The notes under the pieces were generated by a model, which had not been told where the DNA came from, ran no database searches, and saw only the letters and a program-made list of their open reading frames with translations. A program made the position numbers and the translations under genes. Source: Bacteroidota bacterium (lineage in GTDB: Bacteria; Bacteroidota; Bacteroidia; Flavobacteriales; Flavobacteriaceae). From it: a stretch of 36,146 nt of DNA. Every line of letters begins with the position of its first letter. Position 1 is the stretch's first letter. The stretch is taken from the NCBI GenBank assembly GCA_024280145.1, contig JAJRQR010000037.1, forward strand, positions 1 to 36,146. The letters are read 5' to 3'. This document shows positions 1,944-34,380 of the stretch, piece after piece.

Positions 1944-3244
1944 ATGAGTATAGTTGCCATTGTAGGAAGACCAAACGTAGGAAAATCTACCTTATTTAAT
2001 AGATTAATTCAACGTCGTGAAGCGATTGTAGATGCAGTAAGTGGAGTTACAAGAGACCGTCATTATGGGAAAAGTGATTGGAATGGAAAAGAATTTTCAT
2101 TAATAGACACCGGAGGTTATGTAGTTGGAAGTGATGATGTTTTTGAAGCTGAAATCGATAAACAAGTAGAATTAGCGATAGATGAAGCGGATGCTATTGT
2201 TTTTATGACCGATGTAACTTCAGGCGTAACAGGAATGGATGAAGATGTTACTAAATTGCTTCGTAAATCAAACAAGCCTGTTTTTTTAGTAGTAAATAAA
2301 GTGGATAGTGCTAGTCGTACCAATGATGCAGTAGAATTTTATTCTTTAGGTTTCGATAAATATTATATCATGTCTAGTATCAATGGTTCTGGAACAGGAG
2401 AATTACTAGACGATTTAGTAAAAGCACTACCAGATACAGTTGAAGAAGAAGCAAGTGAATTGCCAAGATTTGCAGTTGTAGGAAGACCCAACGCAGGAAA
2501 ATCGTCTTTTATAAATGCCTTAATAGGAAAAGATCGCTACATCGTAACCGATATTGCTGGAACCACACGCGATAGTATAGATACCCATTACAACCGTTTT
2601 GGATTCGATTTTAACTTGGTTGATACTGCCGGAATTAGAAGAAAAAGTAAAGTAAAAGAAGATTTAGAATTTTATTCGGTAATGCGAAGCGTCCGTGCCA
2701 TTGAACACAGCGATGTTGTAATTGTTGTTTTGGATGCCACTCGTGGATTTGATGGACAAGTACAAAATATTTTTGGTTGGCTCAGAAAAATAATAAAGGA
2801 GTTGTGATTTTGGTGAACAAATGGGATTTGGTTGAAAAAGATCATAAAAGTGTGAAGGAATATGAAACTAGAATCCGACAACAATGCGAACCTTTTACCG
2901 ATGTTCCTATTGTATTTATTTCAGTATTAACCAAACAACGAATTTTTAAAGCCATTGAAACTGCGGTTGAAGTATTTAAAAACCGAAGCAAACGTATTAA
3001 AACAAGTGAGCTTAACGAGGTAATGCTTCCTGTAGTAGAAAACTACGGACCACCAGCTTATAAAGGGAAATACGTAAAAATTAAATATATTATGCAATTG
3101 CCATTGCCTTATCCAAGTTTTGCATTTTTCGCAAACCTTCCACAGTACGTAAAGGAACCCTATAAACGTTTTTTAGAAAATAAACTTAGAGAGAAATTCG
3201 ATTTTCACGGAGTTCCAATTACCGTTTATATTCGGAAGAAATAG
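1944..3244 (+). CDS. der: Ribosome biogenesis GTPase Der (EngA), split by an apparent -1 frameshift near 2770-2774
   Basis: Two GTPase domains ([28 protein letters not shown]) and a KH-like C-terminus. Adding one T to the T5 run at 2770-2774 restores ...[29 protein letters not shown]. Confidence 0.93.
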
Positions 3245-17105: not shown

Positions 17106-19054
17106 ATGAATAAACCTACCTTATTAATTTTAATTTTTATTATTACGACATCTGTATTAGCTCAAAATCCTTCAAATAAAATAGATAGTTTACTTCAAAT
17201 TGCTGAAACTACTAATGATTCGATACGACTACGAGTGCTTAATAAAGTTGGATTCTATTATATATTCAATAAACCTTCCGAAGCAAAAAAAATATTAAAA
17301 CCTGCAATTCTTGAAGCAAAAAAAAAGCAAAACTATTTTTCGGAAGCAGAGCTTACTAATACCTACGGAATTTATTTTGATGTTACGGGAAAATCAGATT
17401 CAGCAAAATATTATTTTGAAAAAGCACTGAATATTAGTAATAAAAAAAACATAGCTATACTAAAAAGTATGGTGACCAATAATTTGGGAATGTTTAATTG
17501 GAATAAAGGAGAGTACCAAGCTGCATTGGACTATTTTTTTCAAGCCTTAGAGTTAAATAACGGGAATACTACCAATATTCGTGACGGAATTTACCTTAAT
17601 AACATTGGACTTATTTATCAAGAAATGGGGCAATATGATAAGGCATTAACTTATCATAAAAAGGCTTTAAAAATAAGAGAAGAACACCAAGTTACAAACG
17701 AAATTCCAGCCTCCTTAAATAATATTGCCATTAATTTAAAAGAGAAAAAACAGTATAAGGAAGCTCTAAAGTATGCTGAACTTGCAGTAAAAAAAGCAAA
17801 AGAGGTGAAATCGTTACAAATATATTATGAAGCTTTAAACACCATGTCTAATATTTATATGTTAACCAATAAATATAAAGAAGCACTTCCCATATTAAAG
17901 AAGATAAATATTGAAAGAAACTCCTTAACCATAGAACGTACTGCAAATTTATCAACTATATCAAATATAATCGAATCGTATAATAAGCTTCAGCAACCAA
18001 AAAAGCCTTGCCTTTTATACAGGAAGGGTTTGCTTTTATAAAAGAGTTTCCAGGTCTTAAGAACCATATGGTTACTTTTTATAAAAATACTTCCGAAACC
18101 TATTTTAGACTTCAAAACACAACTAAAGGGAGTGAGTATTTTTTAAAAAGTTTTCAACTTAAAGACAGTATTTTTTCATTAAAAAATGCAGAACGAATGG
18201 CAAGTTTAGAAACCAAATTTAAAATTGCCGAAAATGAAAAAAAATTAGCAGAAACTCGCGCGAACCTCGCAGAATCAGAATTAGAAGTAGAACAAAAAAA
18301 CATTATGATTTTTGGATCTTTGGGCTTTGCACTAATTCTTGGTTTGTTAGGATATTTTATTAATAACCAACAAAAACTTAAAAACCAACAGCTAAAAAAA
18401 GAAAACGAATTAAAAACCGCCTTAGCTAAAATTGAAACCCAAAATCAATTACAAGAACAACGACTTCGAATTTCAAGAGATTTACACGATAATATTGGTT
18501 CGCAACTCACATTTGTAATCTCATCTTTAGATAATTTAAAATACCGTTTAAAAGAAGGTGAAACAGCAGATAAAATATCAAAAATCAGTGGATTTACCAC
18601 CAATACTATTTACGAACTTCGTGATACTATTTGGGCAATGAACAAAAACGACATTACTTTTGAAGATTTGCAAACTCGAATTTCAAACTTTATAGATCAA
18701 GCAAATGTTGCTTCAGATAAAACTGAATTTTCATTTACAATTAATCCGAATACCAATCAAGATTACACCTTCACTTCACTTCAAGGAATGAATTTGTATC
18801 GAATTATTCAAGAGGGAATAAATAATGCTTCAAAATATGCAAAAGCTTCAAAAATTTCTGTACAGATTAGTGAATCTGATAATTCTTTTCAAGTAGAAAT
18901 TAGAGACAACGGAATTGGTTTCGATATAGAAAATACTGAAATGGGGAACGGAATTCTGAACATCAGGAAAAGAGCAAAAGACCTAAACGGGAAGGTAAAA
19001 ATAGCTTCAAAAATAAATAATGGAAGCTCTATCCTTATTGTGTTTCCTTCATAA
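17106..19054 (+). CDS. TPR-containing sensor histidine kinase (HisKA_3/NarL-type), copy 1, frameshifted at A-run 17999-18004
   Basis: Signal peptide, TPR array, TM (IMIFGSLGFALILGLLGYFI), RISRDLHDNIGSQLTFVISSLDNL, HATPase DNGIGFD. One extra A joins ...YNKLQQPKK to ALPFIQEGFAFIKEF. Confidence 0.88.
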
Positions 19055-27556: not shown

Positions 27557-28810
27557 TTACAAGTTAAAAGCTTTTTTAACTTCAGACATATAATCTAATT
27601 TTTCCCAAGTAAAAGTTTCCACAGTTTTAGTGATTTTCTTTCCATCACCTGAGTAAAAAGTAAGTTCTTTTTCTTCCGGTTTTCTTCCCATATGACCATA
27701 AGAGGCAGATTCTAAATAAATAGGGTTTCTAAGCTTTAATCTTTTTTCAATAGCTGCTGGTCGCATATCAAAAATACCTTCCACTACTTTAGAAATTTCA
27801 CTGTCTGTCATATTTACTTTAGCAGTATTATAAGTAACTACGTTTATTGAAGTTGGTTCAGCAACACCAATAGCATAACTTACTTGTACTAAAATCTCGT
27901 CACAAATACCTGCTGCAACCATATTTTTTGCAATATGACGAGAAGCATAAGCAGCACTACGGTCCACTTTACTAGGATCTTTTCCGCTAAAGGCTCCACC
28001 ACCGTGAGCACCTTTTCCTCCGTAAGTATCTACAATAATTTTACGTCCTGTTAAACCTGTATCGCCGTGAGGGCCTCCAATAACAAATTTTCCTGTTGGA
28101 TTAATATGATAGATAATATCATCGTTAAACAACGCTTGAATTTCAGCAGAAAGTTGAGAAACTACTCTTGGTATTAAAAGAGAAACTAAGTCTGATTTTA
28201 TTTTAGCCAACATTTTTTCATCTTCATCAAAATCGTCGTGTTGTGTCGATATTACAATCGTATCGATTCGTTGAGGTTTGTTGTCTTCACTATATTCAAT
28301 AGTTACTTGACTTTTTGCATCGGGACGTAAATAGTCAATGTCTTTTTCTTCTCTTCGTAAAGCTGCTAATTCAATTAAAATACGATGACTTAAATCTAAA
28401 GCTAAAGGCATATAATTAGCTGTTTCGTTGGTCGCATAACCAAACATCATTCCTTGGTCTCCTGCGCCTTGTTCTTCTCCTTCTGCACGATCTACACCTT
28501 GGTTAATATCTGATGATTGCTCGTGGATAGATGAAAACACACCACAAGAATTTCCGTCAAACATATATTCGCTTTTGGTATAACCAATTTTATTGATGAC
28601 ATCTCTAGCAATTTTCTGAACATCTAAATAGGTGTTACTTTTTACTTCACCAGCAAGTACAACTTGACCTGTAGTAACTAAAGTTTCACAAGCGATTTTT
28701 GATTGTGGATCAAACGCTAAAAAATGATCCACTAAAGCATCACTAATTTGGTCTGCTACTTTATCTGGATGTCCTTCAGAAACACTTTCTGATGTAAATA
28801 AATATGCCAT
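27557..28810 (-). CDS. metK: Methionine adenosyltransferase
   Basis: [86 protein letters not shown]. Confidence 0.98.
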
Positions 28811-28976
28811 AAATGGTATTCTTTTTTTAATTTTAATACTATAGTTGACGAAAGCTGCTTGGGGAAATTACAAACCGAAATTTTATTCGGTTAAAACTGC
28901 CTTTAGCATTTTTTATTCTGAAATAATTTCAGATTAGAGGTCGCAATCAGTCAAATTTTTCCTCTTTTTAGATATG

Positions 28977-29651: not shown

Positions 29652-30757
29652 ATGAAGTTTAGTATACAATTAGTTCTTCTTTTTTTTTCAACATTAATGC
29701 TATCTCAGCAAAATGAAATGAAATATTTTTCACTTGATGTGGATTATTTTTATGGCTCTATAATTGAACATAATAGGGATATATCTCATCTGATAACTGG
29801 TCACCCAACAGGATTAATAGTTTCGTATAATCGAAAAACATATGGTTTTAGCGAATGGGAGGGACGTTATAATTATCCAGATTGGGGATTTACTTTTACC
29901 TATCAGGATATGAAAAATCAATTTTTAGGTGAAAATTATGCTGTTTATGGACATTATAATTTTTATTTTTTAAAAAGAAGTTTAGTGTTTGGAATGGGAC
30001 AGGGTATTGCCTATAACACAAATCCTTATGATCCTGAAACTAATTATCAGAATAACGCATATGGAAGCCGTTTTCTAAGTTCTACTTATTTAAGGTTTAA
30101 TTACGTGAAAGAAAATTTATTCAAAGGGTTAGGTGTTCATGCAGGGTTAGGTGTAATACATTATTCTAATGCAAATTTAAAAGCTCCAAATACAAGTACA
30201 AATACCCTTTTTTTAATGCAGGTATTAGTTATTTATTTGATGAGCAAAGTTATCCTGAATATATACCAGTAGGAAATTGGAGAAGTAATAATTATAGAGA
30301 GCGTTTTAAATATAATGTGGTGTTTAGGACAGGAATAAATGAAGCTGATGTTAATGGTTTGGGTCAATTTCCTTTTTTTACATTTTCAACATTTGTGGAT
30401 AAAAGAATTAATTACAAAAGCACATTACAAGCCGGAGTTGATGTTTTTTTCTCTGCTTTTTTAGAAGAACTTATCAATTATAGATACATTGCCTGTCCAG
30501 AAGATGGGCTATCAGGAGATGAAGATTACAGAAGAATAGGTGTCTTCTTAGGGCATGAATTCAGATTTAATAAAAACGCATTTGTTACTCAATTGGGATA
30601 TTATGTATATTGGCCTTATGAATTCGAAAGTAGAATTTATAATAGATTGGGGTTAAAAAGATACTTCTTAAAGGGTAAATTTTTTGGAGCAATAACTCTT
30701 CATGCACATTGGGCTAAGGCAGAAGCAGTTGAATTTGGGATAGGAGTAAGGTTATAA
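29652..30757 (+). CDS. Acyloxyacyl hydrolase / PagL-like outer membrane lipid A deacylase, frameshifted at T-run 30208-30214
   Basis: Beta-barrel with H-x-S-N-like HYSNANLKAPN motif. Adding one T restores ...NTLFFNAGISYLFDEQSYPEYIPVGNWRSNNYRERFKYNVVFRTG. Confidence 0.78.
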
Positions 30758-30762
30758 AAAAT

Positions 30763-31515
30763 ATGAGAAAAATTAAATATATTGTTTGTTTGCTACTTTT
30801 AATAGGGTGTGATTCTGAAAATGCAATTGATTGTTTTCAAGCATCAGGTGATATTATTGAAAAAGAGTTTACGGTAGGAAGATTTAGGAAAATTGTTGCA
30901 GGAAATGGAGTAAGTTTAATTATCTCTCAAGGTGAAACTAGTTCCGTAATTGTTCAAACTGGAGAAAATTTAATGAGGGAAGTTAGTGCCTATGTTATTA
31001 ATGATACGCTTCAGTTGGTTGATATGAATGGCTGTAATTTTGTTAGAGATTATGGGTTGATAAAAATTTTTGTAACTGCACCCAATGTTACAGAAATTCA
31101 TAATAGATCTGGATTAGATATTTATAGTCAAGGATTAATAGCATTTAATGAATTGGAATTAATTTCAGATGATCCTACGGGTACTGGTGATATTTCTGTA
31201 AATGGAGATTTTATTTTTGATAACTTAGATATTCATAAATTAACTATAAGAGCAAATGGGCTTTCTAAATTTTTCTTAAAAGGAAAGGCTGATGGTTGCT
31301 CTCTCATTATTTCAGATAGTGATGTGAGAATTGAAGCAGGAGAGTTAGAAATACAACACTTATTTCTTTTTCACAGAAGTACAAATAAAATGATTGTCAA
31401 TCCTCAAAAGTCAATAAGAGGAACAATAACTGGTTTAGGTGACGTTATTTCTAAAAATAGACCTCCTATAATTGATGTAGAAGAATTATATACCGGAAAA
31501 CTTATTTTTGAATAG
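30763..31515 (+). CDS. Head GIN domain (DUF2807) lipoprotein
   Basis: LLLIGCDSEN lipobox; GRFRKIVAGNGVSLIISQGETSSVIVQTGENLMREVSAYVINDTLQLVD. Confidence 0.82.
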   Translation: MRKIKYIVCLLLLIGCDSENAIDCFQASGDIIEKEFTVGRFRKIVAGNGVSLIISQGETSSVIVQTGENLMREVSAYVINDTLQLVDMNGCNFVRDYGLIKIFVTAPNVTEIHNRSGLDIYSQGLIAFNELELISDDPTGTGDISVNGDFIFDNLDIHKLTIRANGLSKFFLKGKADGCSLIISDSDVRIEAGELEIQHLFLFHRSTNKMIVNPQKSIRGTITGLGDVISKNRPPIIDVEELYTGKLIFE

Positions 31516-32206
31516 TCAACTCGGTAAATAAAGTTTCTAATTTTTTATCTTTTATAGTTTCAGCGATTGTTTTATCGTGAACTAAATTCCCTTTGTTTAA
31601 TATAATTACTCGGTCACATATTGCTTCTACCTCTTGCATAATATGAGAGGAAAACAAGACTGTTTTTTCACCTTCTTTAGCAACTTTTTTTATCAACTCC
31701 CTAATTTCTAATAACTGATTAGGGTCTAATCCTGTAGTAGGTTCATCTAAAATTAACACTTCTGGATTGTGCAACAAAGCATTCGCCAAACCTACTCGTT
31801 GTCTGTATCCTTTAGAGAGTTGCTCGATTTTTTTATGTGCTTCAGAAGAAAGTCCTGTTTGTTCTATAACTAGTTCAACTTGTGATTTATCAATTTTATA
31901 AACCTCGGCATTAAAACCCAAATACTCTCGAACATACATATCTAAATACAAAGGATTATGTTCAGGAAGGTAGCCAACACGTTTTTGAACATTGATTTTT
32001 TCATCGGTTACAGAAAATTCATTGACAAAAGCTGATCCTTCAAAAGAAGAAATATAAGTTGTTAAAATTTTCATCATTGTGGATTTTCCTGCGCCATTTG
32101 GACCAAGAAAACCAACAATTTCTCCTTTTTTTATAGAAAAAGAAACTGCGTTTAATGCAGTTTGTTTACCATAAATTTTAGTAATATTTTCTACTTTTAT
32201 TGACAT
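31502..32206 (-). CDS. gldA: Gliding motility-associated ABC transporter ATP-binding subunit GldA
   Basis: GFLGPNGAGKSTMMKILTTYI, LSKGYRQRVGLANALLHNPEVLILDEPTTGLDPNQLLEIRELI. Confidence 0.88.
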   Translation of the reverse strand: MSIKVENITKIYGKQTALNAVSFSIKKGEIVGFLGPNGAGKSTMMKILTTYISSFEGSAFVNEFSVTDEKINVQKRVGYLPEHNPLYLDMYVREYLGFNAEVYKIDKSQVELVIEQTGLSSEAHKKIEQLSKGYRQRVGLANALLHNPEVLILDEPTTGLDPNQLLEIRELIKKVAKEGEKTVLFSSHIMQEVEAICDRVIILNKGNLVHDKTIAETIKDKKLETLFTELTIQK

Positions 32207-32300
32207 ATTTTAACTTTAAAACAAAACTACATAAATAAAAAGTAAAAAAATGTAGGTTGTTTTTAATAATTAATTACATTAGCGACTTCAAAACGTAATA

Positions 32301-32372
32301 ATGAACAATTTATTTGCATTTAGTAATTTTTGGTATTTCTTTTTTAAAGAAACACCCGAGATTGTGATGTAA
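32301..32372 (+). CDS. Putative aromatic-residue-rich leader peptide MNNLFAFSNFWYFFFKETPEIVM
   Basis: 23 codons with 6 Phe, 1 Trp and 1 Tyr, immediately upstream of an intrinsic terminator and pheA; absent from the supplied ORF track because of its length. Confidence 0.75.
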   Translation: MNNLFAFSNFWYFFFKETPEIVM

Positions 32373-32396
32373 TTAATAAAAATAAATTATAAAATG

Positions 32397-32424
32397 GTCT
32401 CGGAATTATCCGAGACTTTTTTTT
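32397..32424 (+). terminator. Intrinsic terminator (attenuator) upstream of pheA
   Basis: GTCTCGGA-atta-TCCGAGAC (8-bp perfect stem, 4-nt loop) followed by T8. Confidence 0.9.
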
Positions 32425-32447
32425 ACTAAATTTTTAAAACAAAAGCT

Positions 32448-33320
32448 ATGAGCCTAAAAATTGCCATCCAGGGTATTGAAAGTTCTTTTCACGATATGGC
32501 TGTGAAAAAACTTTTTCCCAATGAAGAAATTGAATTAGTAATGTGTACTACTTTTGAGAAAGTTACTGAAGCAATTAATAATTATACAGCAGATTTTGGA
32601 GTGCTAGCTATTGAAAATACCATTGCAGGTTCTATTTTACCGAATTATAATTTAATTGACAATACTAATTTGGTGATTATGGACGAGGTTTTTTTAAACA
32701 TTCAAATGTATATTATGGCTTTGGAATCTGAAAGTATACATGATATTATTGAAATTCATTCACATCCAGTAGCCTTGCTTCAATGTAAAAATTATTTGCA
32801 GAAATTTCCGCCACATTTTAAAATTATTGAAGGTGCAGATACCGCTTCCGAAGCAAAAAAAATTAAAGATGGAAACCTTAAAGGAGTAGCTGCTATTGCC
32901 GGAAAACAAGTAGCCGAAAAATATGGCTTAAAGATTTTAGATAGTAGAATTCAGAATAATAGTGATAATCAAACCCGTTTCGTTTTAATTGGTAAAGAGG
33001 TGAAATCTCATTCTCAAGATGCTAATAAAGCAACATTAAAATTTATGTTGGATCATCGTGTAGGAAGTTTGTCAAATGTGTTGCAATTATTTAGTACTTT
33101 CAATATTAGTTTAACAAAAATACAGTCCCTACCAATCATTGGAGAACCATGGCAGTATGCTTTCTTTGTGGATGTTTTGTTTGAAGATTATAAACTGTTT
33201 AAAGATGTTATAAAGGTTTTAGAAAACGCTGTAAAAGAATTAAAAGTAGTCGGTGTTTATAAACAAAACCATGAAAATAAACCAAGTGAATTATTAAAAA
33301 ATCTAGAAAATGAAAAATAA
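32448..33320 (+). CDS. pheA: Prephenate dehydratase
   Basis: IAIQGIESSFHDMAV, FGVLAIENTIAGSILPNYNLI, NQTRFVLIGKE, C-terminal ACT domain LKFMLDHRVGSLSNVLQLFSTFNISLTKIQSLPI. Confidence 0.96.
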   Translation: MSLKIAIQGIESSFHDMAVKKLFPNEEIELVMCTTFEKVTEAINNYTADFGVLAIENTIAGSILPNYNLIDNTNLVIMDEVFLNIQMYIMALESESIHDIIEIHSHPVALLQCKNYLQKFPPHFKIIEGADTASEAKKIKDGNLKGVAAIAGKQVAEKYGLKILDSRIQNNSDNQTRFVLIGKEVKSHSQDANKATLKFMLDHRVGSLSNVLQLFSTFNISLTKIQSLPIIGEPWQYAFFVDVLFEDYKLFKDVIKVLENAVKELKVVGVYKQNHENKPSELLKNLENEK

Positions 33321-34380
33321 TAAAAACCTTAGAACTTGGTTAAATAATATGGGCTTGCAACATCCTTTGGTAATCGCAGGACCCTGTAGTGCAGAATCTG
33401 AAGCACAAGTTTTAAATATTGCACGCCAGCTTAAAAACACAGATGCAACTGTGTTAAGAGCAGGAATTTGGAAGCCAAGAACTCGTCCTGGTAATTTTGA
33501 AGGCGTAGGGGAGATTGGTTTAAAATGGATGAAAAAAGCAAAGGAAGAAACCGGCTTATTAACGGCCACCGAAGTTGCGAATCCTAATCATGTGGAACTA
33601 GCCTTACAAAACGATATTGATATTTTATGGATAGGAGCGAGGACAACAGTTTCACCATTTATTGTTCAAGAAATTGCGGAAGCCTTAAAAGGAACCGATA
33701 AAATAGTTTTAGTAAAAAATCCAGTAAACCCTGATTTAGCCTTATGGTTAGGAGCGGTTGAGAGATTATATACTTCAAATATTGAACGCTTAGGTGTGAT
33801 TCATAGAGGGTTTTCAACCTATGAAAAAACTAAGTATCGTAACAATCCAGAATGGCAAATTCCTATTGACTTACAAAATCAGTTTCCAGATTTACCATTG
33901 ATTTTAGATCCTTCGCATATTGCAGGTCGTAGGGATATTATTTTTGACTTGTGTCAAACCGCATTAGATCTTAATTTTGATGGATTAATGATTGAAACTC
34001 ATCACGATCCAGACAATGCATGGAGCGATGCAAGTCAACAAATCACACCAAAAGTTTTGGATCAAATCACTATTGATTTAAAAATAAGGAAAGAAGAAAG
34101 TGAGGCTTTAGAATATAAGAACAAGCTTGAAAATTTAAGAACTAAAATTGATGTTATTGATCATAAAATTTCTGAAATTATTGGGAAACGTATGCAAATT
34201 GCAGATGATATTGGAATTTTAAAAAAGAATAATAATGTAGCTATTTTACAAAATAAAAGATGGAATGAGATTTTAGGAAGAATGATATTAGAAGGAAAAG
34301 AGAATAATTTAAGCGAAGAATTTGTACTTAAAATATATAAAGCAATTCATCAAGAATCTATCAATCACCAGAAAAGATAA
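33310..34380 (+). CDS. Bifunctional 3-deoxy-7-phosphoheptulonate synthase / chorismate mutase type II
   Basis: VIAGPCSAESEAQVLNIARQL, LRAGIWKPRTRPGNFEGVGEIGLKWM, LDPSHIAGRRDII; C-terminal LRTKIDVIDHKISEIIGKRMQIADDIGILKKNNNVAILQNKRW. Confidence 0.96.
   Translation: MKNNKNLRTWLNNMGLQHPLVIAGPCSAESEAQVLNIARQLKNTDATVLRAGIWKPRTRPGNFEGVGEIGLKWMKKAKEETGLLTATEVANPNHVELALQNDIDILWIGARTTVSPFIVQEIAEALKGTDKIVLVKNPVNPDLALWLGAVERLYTSNIERLGVIHRGFSTYEKTKYRNNPEWQIPIDLQNQFPDLPLILDPSHIAGRRDIIFDLCQTALDLNFDGLMIETHHDPDNAWSDASQQITPKVLDQITIDLKIRKEESEALEYKNKLENLRTKIDVIDHKISEIIGKRMQIADDIGILKKNNNVAILQNKRWNEILGRMILEGKENNLSEEFVLKIYKAIHQESINHQKR

Follow-up and report, generated by a model that had tools for sequence, protein, structure and literature searches.

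Is the short open reading frame (ORF) rich in aromatic codons that precedes pheA in this flavobacterial DNA a leader peptide through which ribosomes control transcription of the gene? Ribosome-mediated attenuation is a textbook mechanism and is best known from Proteobacteria. We analyzed a 36,146-nt stretch of DNA (the window; positions 1-36,146, forward strand, of contig JAJRQR010000037.1, GenBank GCA_024280145.1) from the draft, incomplete genome of a marine Bacteroidota bacterium, placed by GTDB in the Flavobacteriaceae (Flavobacteriales, Bacteroidia). We are highly confident that its own pheA locus (L001) carries a classical, three-hairpin attenuator through which ribosomes control transcription of pheA-aroG/CM. 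The first-pass annotation had proposed this mechanism, and conservation, an arm-swap control and ribosome-masked folding now support it.

The leader and its downstream genes

The locus is composed of the following features:

32275-32282, plus strand: putative -7-like promoter element TACATTAG, read from the sequence as Bacteroidota TAnnTTTG type with one mismatch
32301-32372, plus strand: leader ORF MNNLFAFSNFWYFFFKETPEIVM, ATG at 32301, stop codon TAA at 32370-32372, 23 codons
32314-32372, plus strand: predicted 1:2 protector hairpin, 32314-32342 with 32346-32372, -15.7 kcal/mol
32328-32345, plus strand: aromatic codon run F-W-Y-F-F-F, predicted ribosome stall sites; relatives keep the F-rich run but vary in W and Y
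32356-32365, plus strand: segment 2, antiterminator 5' strand CCGAGATTGT with core CCGAGA (32356-32361), inside the leader ORF
32394-32403, plus strand: segment 3, antiterminator 3' strand, overlapping the terminator 5' arm
32396-32424, plus strand: intrinsic terminator (3:4) with 9-pair stem, 4-nt loop and T8, hairpin about -14.0 kcal/mol
32448-33320, plus strand: pheA, prephenate dehydratase with ACT domain (PF00800, E 2.4e-52), the first gene proposed to be regulated
33310-34380, plus strand: DAHP synthase type I/chorismate mutase fusion (PF00793, PF01817), the second gene proposed to be regulated

The leader peptide contains 6 Phe, 1 Trp and 1 Tyr, and its stop codon lies only 75 nt ahead of pheA. 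The terminator is a perfect 8-bp stem (GTCTCGGA, 32397-32404, with TCCGAGAC, 32409-32416) followed by T8 (32417-32424); nine pairs are obtained when the flanking G-T is counted, and a terminator-like scan agrees. The positions given by the first-pass annotation for the ORF, the terminator, CCGAGA and the pheA start, and its peptide composition, proved correct to the base. The upstream neighbor of the leader, an ABC transporter gene (31502-32206, minus strand), is divergent, and on the minus strand no T tract follows the hairpin; the terminator therefore does not represent the end of another gene. Both downstream gene calls were verified by their domains (PDT and ACT; DAHP_synth_1 and CM_2), with the ACT domain of pheA being weak (PF01842, 23.4 bits, below the cut-off of 27). 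The second gene overlaps pheA by 11 nt. The functions of the two genes fit phenylalanine attenuation and were thus counted in its favor. Together, the locus holds an aromatic-rich ORF that is predicted to be translated, a terminator before the first gene and an antiterminator that excludes this terminator, as expected for an attenuator.

We estimated from 5000 dinucleotide shuffles of 32207-32447 how often such elements arise by chance. An ATG-initiated ORF, 10-40 codons long and containing 8 or more aromatic residues, was found in 104 shuffles (2%), a perfect 8-bp, G+C-containing hairpin followed by T6 in 0/5000, and both together likewise in 0/5000. In DNA this rich in A+T, an aromatic ORF by itself is not very improbable; what is improbable is its occurrence together with the terminator, and that this pairing is conserved.

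Elsewhere in the window, a SAM-II riboswitch (RF01726, 54.7 bits) is located at 28893-28970 on the minus strand, ahead of an S-adenosylmethionine synthetase-like ORF (metK, 27557-28810). Adjoining ORFs in differing frames at 1944-3244, 17106-19054 and 29652-30757 resemble single genes split by frameshift (candidates are GTPase Der, a TPR histidine kinase and an outer-membrane-like protein) and are perhaps assembly errors of the draft genome.

Conservation and covariation among relatives

We compared pheA upstream regions from the same genus and family (120 Flavobacteriaceae loci, the window's own included) and from the wider class (30 loci), scoring a locus as positive if it had a leader ORF that starts with ATG and encodes 6 or more aromatic residues, with a suitably spaced terminator behind it. 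A leader and terminator precede pheA in 116/120 family loci and in 15/30 class loci, fractions that are approximate because the search was heuristic and used pheA matches with the better scores instead of sampling at random. The remaining 4 of the 120 family loci were negative in this automatic search. The aromatic codons of the leader, whose absence in relatives would have spoken against the first-pass reading, are thus kept in 116/120 family loci. Leader types vary by clade (NFWFFYF; YFWNGFYFYFFFKRGTGLF; NWFYFFFSKRNETLYV), while length, aromatic run and tail are kept. The cultured relative Ulvibacter antarcticus has the same leader, MKHLSTYFNFWYFYFMEKPGIVM. Flavobacteriaceae rarely use Shine-Dalgarno-led initiation, and the Bacteroidota -7 promoter element is TAnnTTTG. 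Most of the 116 relatives carry an element of the form TACTTTAGC/TACATTAGC/TACCTTAGC at a comparable spacing upstream of the leader ATG, and this element would be compatible with such a -7 element.

In the window, 32356-32365 pairs with 32394-32403 over 10 bp, G-U pairs included, forming a long hairpin capped by an inner helix with a predicted energy of -15.7 kcal/mol, compared with -14.0 for the terminator. The complementarity of CCGAGA to the terminator 5' arm, pointed out in the first-pass annotation, is thus borne out, and it recurs with different letters in relatives: terminator 5' arms and ORF tails occur as GTCTCG/CGAGAC, GTCCCG/CGGGAC, ACCCGG/CCGGGT, ATCCCG/CGGGAT and GTCCTG/CAGGAC. 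As controls we swapped terminator arms between sequence types and shuffled the tails. The best antiterminator helix has a mean energy of -9.8 kcal/mol in native loci versus -4.9 with swapped arms, and reaches -6 kcal/mol or below in 94% of native loci versus 35% with swapped arms. Among family loci, 108/116 reach -6 natively, compared with 8.7% of shuffled tails. These comparisons indicate that the ORF tail and the terminator arm covary between sequence types. Column-wise pair counting in two subclades found pairs not clearly above shuffles, a count that is uninformative because the core shows almost no variation in the subclade alignments. In a codon-gapless clade alignment the antiterminator is one base off in RVV-type leaders, and one structure string cannot score all rows.

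Ribosome position and the amino acid sensed

The spacing from the last aromatic codon (first base) to the start of the antiterminator is 11-15 nt in 100/108 family loci. A ribosome reaches about 12-13 nt beyond the codon in its A site, and the conserved spacing would thus correspond to about the leading edge of a stalled ribosome. The leader stop codon comes after the end of the antiterminator in nearly all family loci; the antiterminator is therefore part of the coding sequence, and a ribosome that terminates translation covers it. We next folded the window leader with the ribosome footprint masked. With a ribosome at the stop codon, the model gives a probability of 0 for the antiterminator and 0.98 for the terminator. 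When nascent RNA is masked to A+12, the antiterminator reaches 0.998-0.999 for stalls at 32328-32343 and 0.94 for stalls at the Phe codons further upstream (32313 and 32319). Its probability falls to 0.48 at Lys 32346, and between 32352 and the stop it is 0. The first-pass suggestion that a stall at the last Phe codon may partly cover CCGAGA depends on the footprint: masked folding makes the last aromatic codon, 32343, the last permissive stall at A+12, while it is impaired at A+13/14. At equilibrium, the full leader with a stalled ribosome still folds mainly into the terminator (P about 0.9). Read-through in this model hence requires that the antiterminator forms first, during transcription, as in classical attenuators.

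The first-pass annotation missed the 1:2 protector hairpin. Leaders of the family fold more stably than synonymous-codon shuffles (mean -10.2 versus -6.6, mean z -1.45, 70% below -1); the window's own leader is unexceptional in this respect (z only -0.5), and pair counting for the hairpin is weak. The predicted hairpin would complete the set of 1:2, 2:3 and 3:4 helices of the trp leader.

From the anatomy, its conservation, the complementarity and the predicted energies we infer a transcription start, coupled translation, read-through and a response to amino acids, as follows. Transcription would begin a short way upstream of 32301. When charged tRNA-Phe (and tRNA-Tyr) is plentiful, the ribosome would reach the stop codon and cover CCGAGATTGT, allowing the terminator to form and halting RNA polymerase ahead of pheA. 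A stall at any aromatic codon no later than 32343 would leave this segment free to pair with 32394-32403 before the terminator 3' arm is transcribed, and the polymerase would read through, so that the cell almost certainly raises enzyme output when charged aromatic tRNA becomes scarce. In an untranslated leader, the ORF would fold on itself (1:2), hide the antiterminator strand and favor the terminator.

Which amino acid does the leader sense? A variant of the same mechanism holds that Phe, Tyr and Trp are sensed equally, as the operon feeds three branches via DAHP synthase. The DAHP synthase/chorismate mutase gene indeed sits in the operon and FWYFFF holds all three aromatic residues, but there is only 1 Tyr versus 6 Phe. 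Phe and Tyr are present in every family leader, whereas Trp is absent from 34/116 of them and from 6/12 same-genus leaders. Furthermore, trpE has a Trp leader of its own: on contig C91 of the same genome (L152, minus strand, about 2113-1996), a WW leader peptide, MNKTILNNNWWQPLRNKIVIG, and a terminator precede trpE, with a sub-threshold match to Bacteroid-trp (32.9 bits, cut-off 49). We thus consider equal sensing unlikely. Since Trp is not conserved and trpE is served separately, the pheA leader is best read mainly as a Phe sensor, with Tyr second; of the mixed Phe, Trp and Tyr sensing suggested by the first-pass annotation, the conserved codons support the Phe and, secondarily, the Tyr part. 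A search for a second leader at hisG did not find this gene in the incomplete genome.

The Tyr content of the leaders differs between clades. A tyrA match (PF02153) above cut-off was found in 0/28 genomes of the clade of this pheA (at least 56% identity) and in 51/52 other genomes searched, in most of the positive ones about 1.2-2.5 kb downstream of pheA. Leaders contain on average 1.9 Tyr in the tyrA-less clade versus 3.4 in the others (p about 2e-9, by a test that ignores relatedness). Loss of tyrA with lower Tyr content is in effect one evolutionary event and is a lead only. The single other genome lacking tyrA (L061) keeps 3 leader Tyr and, as an independent case, speaks against the idea that the codons match the operon. 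A link between Tyr content and phenylalanine hydroxylase was dropped, as the enzyme is found in 30/40 genomes, in both groups. The host genome contains a hydroxylase-like gene. Six congeners have neither a hydroxylase nor a tyrA match. Formation of Tyr from Phe by a hydroxylase has been discussed in Dyella and in the Bacteroidetes member Echinicola (PMC7311316). Tentatively, we envisage a Bacteroidota-wide attenuator variant in which the antiterminator lies inside the leader frame just past a ribosome that has stalled on the final aromatic codon. Its sensed codons would follow the operon products, with Tyr codons declining where tyrA has been lost and Tyr comes from Phe hydroxylation or uptake.

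Two readings without a sensing ribosome have to be weighed against attenuation. The ORF and terminator could be real and yet serve constitutive partial termination or translational coupling without amino-acid sensing, given that the leader stop is just 75 nt from pheA and that all intrinsic terminators leak. This is very improbable, as the aromatic codons, the stall geometry and a covarying antiterminator are kept across the family. We give next to no credence to a metabolite-binding riboswitch or T-box with terminator and an accidental leader ORF: the 5' region is terminator-controlled and the window does hold a true riboswitch, the SAM-II element before metK, but aromatic codons, frame, ORF tail and terminator are conserved with no conserved aptamer-like core elsewhere, and the reading was rejected because no Rfam family matches the pheA leader at gathering score.

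Relation to known leader peptides

For the window locus alone, attenuation is an ordinary, expected result. The best novelty of the finding is the family-wide anatomy. An alignable Phe leader that is near-universal in Flavobacteriaceae, with about half of the other class loci positive, provides a natural set of variants, which could be used to examine the tuning of leader codons, of the ribosome footprint and of the competition between hairpins. No Rfam model covers the window pheA leader, and it would thus warrant a family of its own.

What is already known is attenuation as a kind and a pheA 5' element reported in Flavobacterium psychrophilum. Amino-acid operons of this species have been described as preceded by strong signs of leader-peptide attenuation, and a structured 5' element at pheA was reported that is conserved in other Flavobacteriaceae and has no Rfam hits (ISME Commun 2021, PMC9723704). 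Gene, bacterial family, the naming of leader-peptide attenuation and the lack of an Rfam hit are all shared with our locus; the main-text section on the element gives no three-hairpin anatomy. Judging from gene, family and description, the window leader is very likely the same element.

The Bacteroid-trp leader (RF01692; Weinberg 2010, PMC2864571) is likewise a Bacteroidota leader-peptide RNA for an aromatic amino-acid operon, but has Trp codons and trp genes; it does not match the pheA leader up to E 5 (gathering cut-off 49 bits). The Phe leader of Escherichia coli pheA (RF01859) shares a Phe-rich peptide, the choice between antiterminator and terminator, and the target gene with the window leader, yet the two have no sequence relation (15.7 bits, gathering cut-off 55). 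Unlike in E. coli, the antiterminator strand of the window leader lies inside the leader ORF, a detail that, along with the lower Tyr content in the tyrA-less clade, is possibly new.
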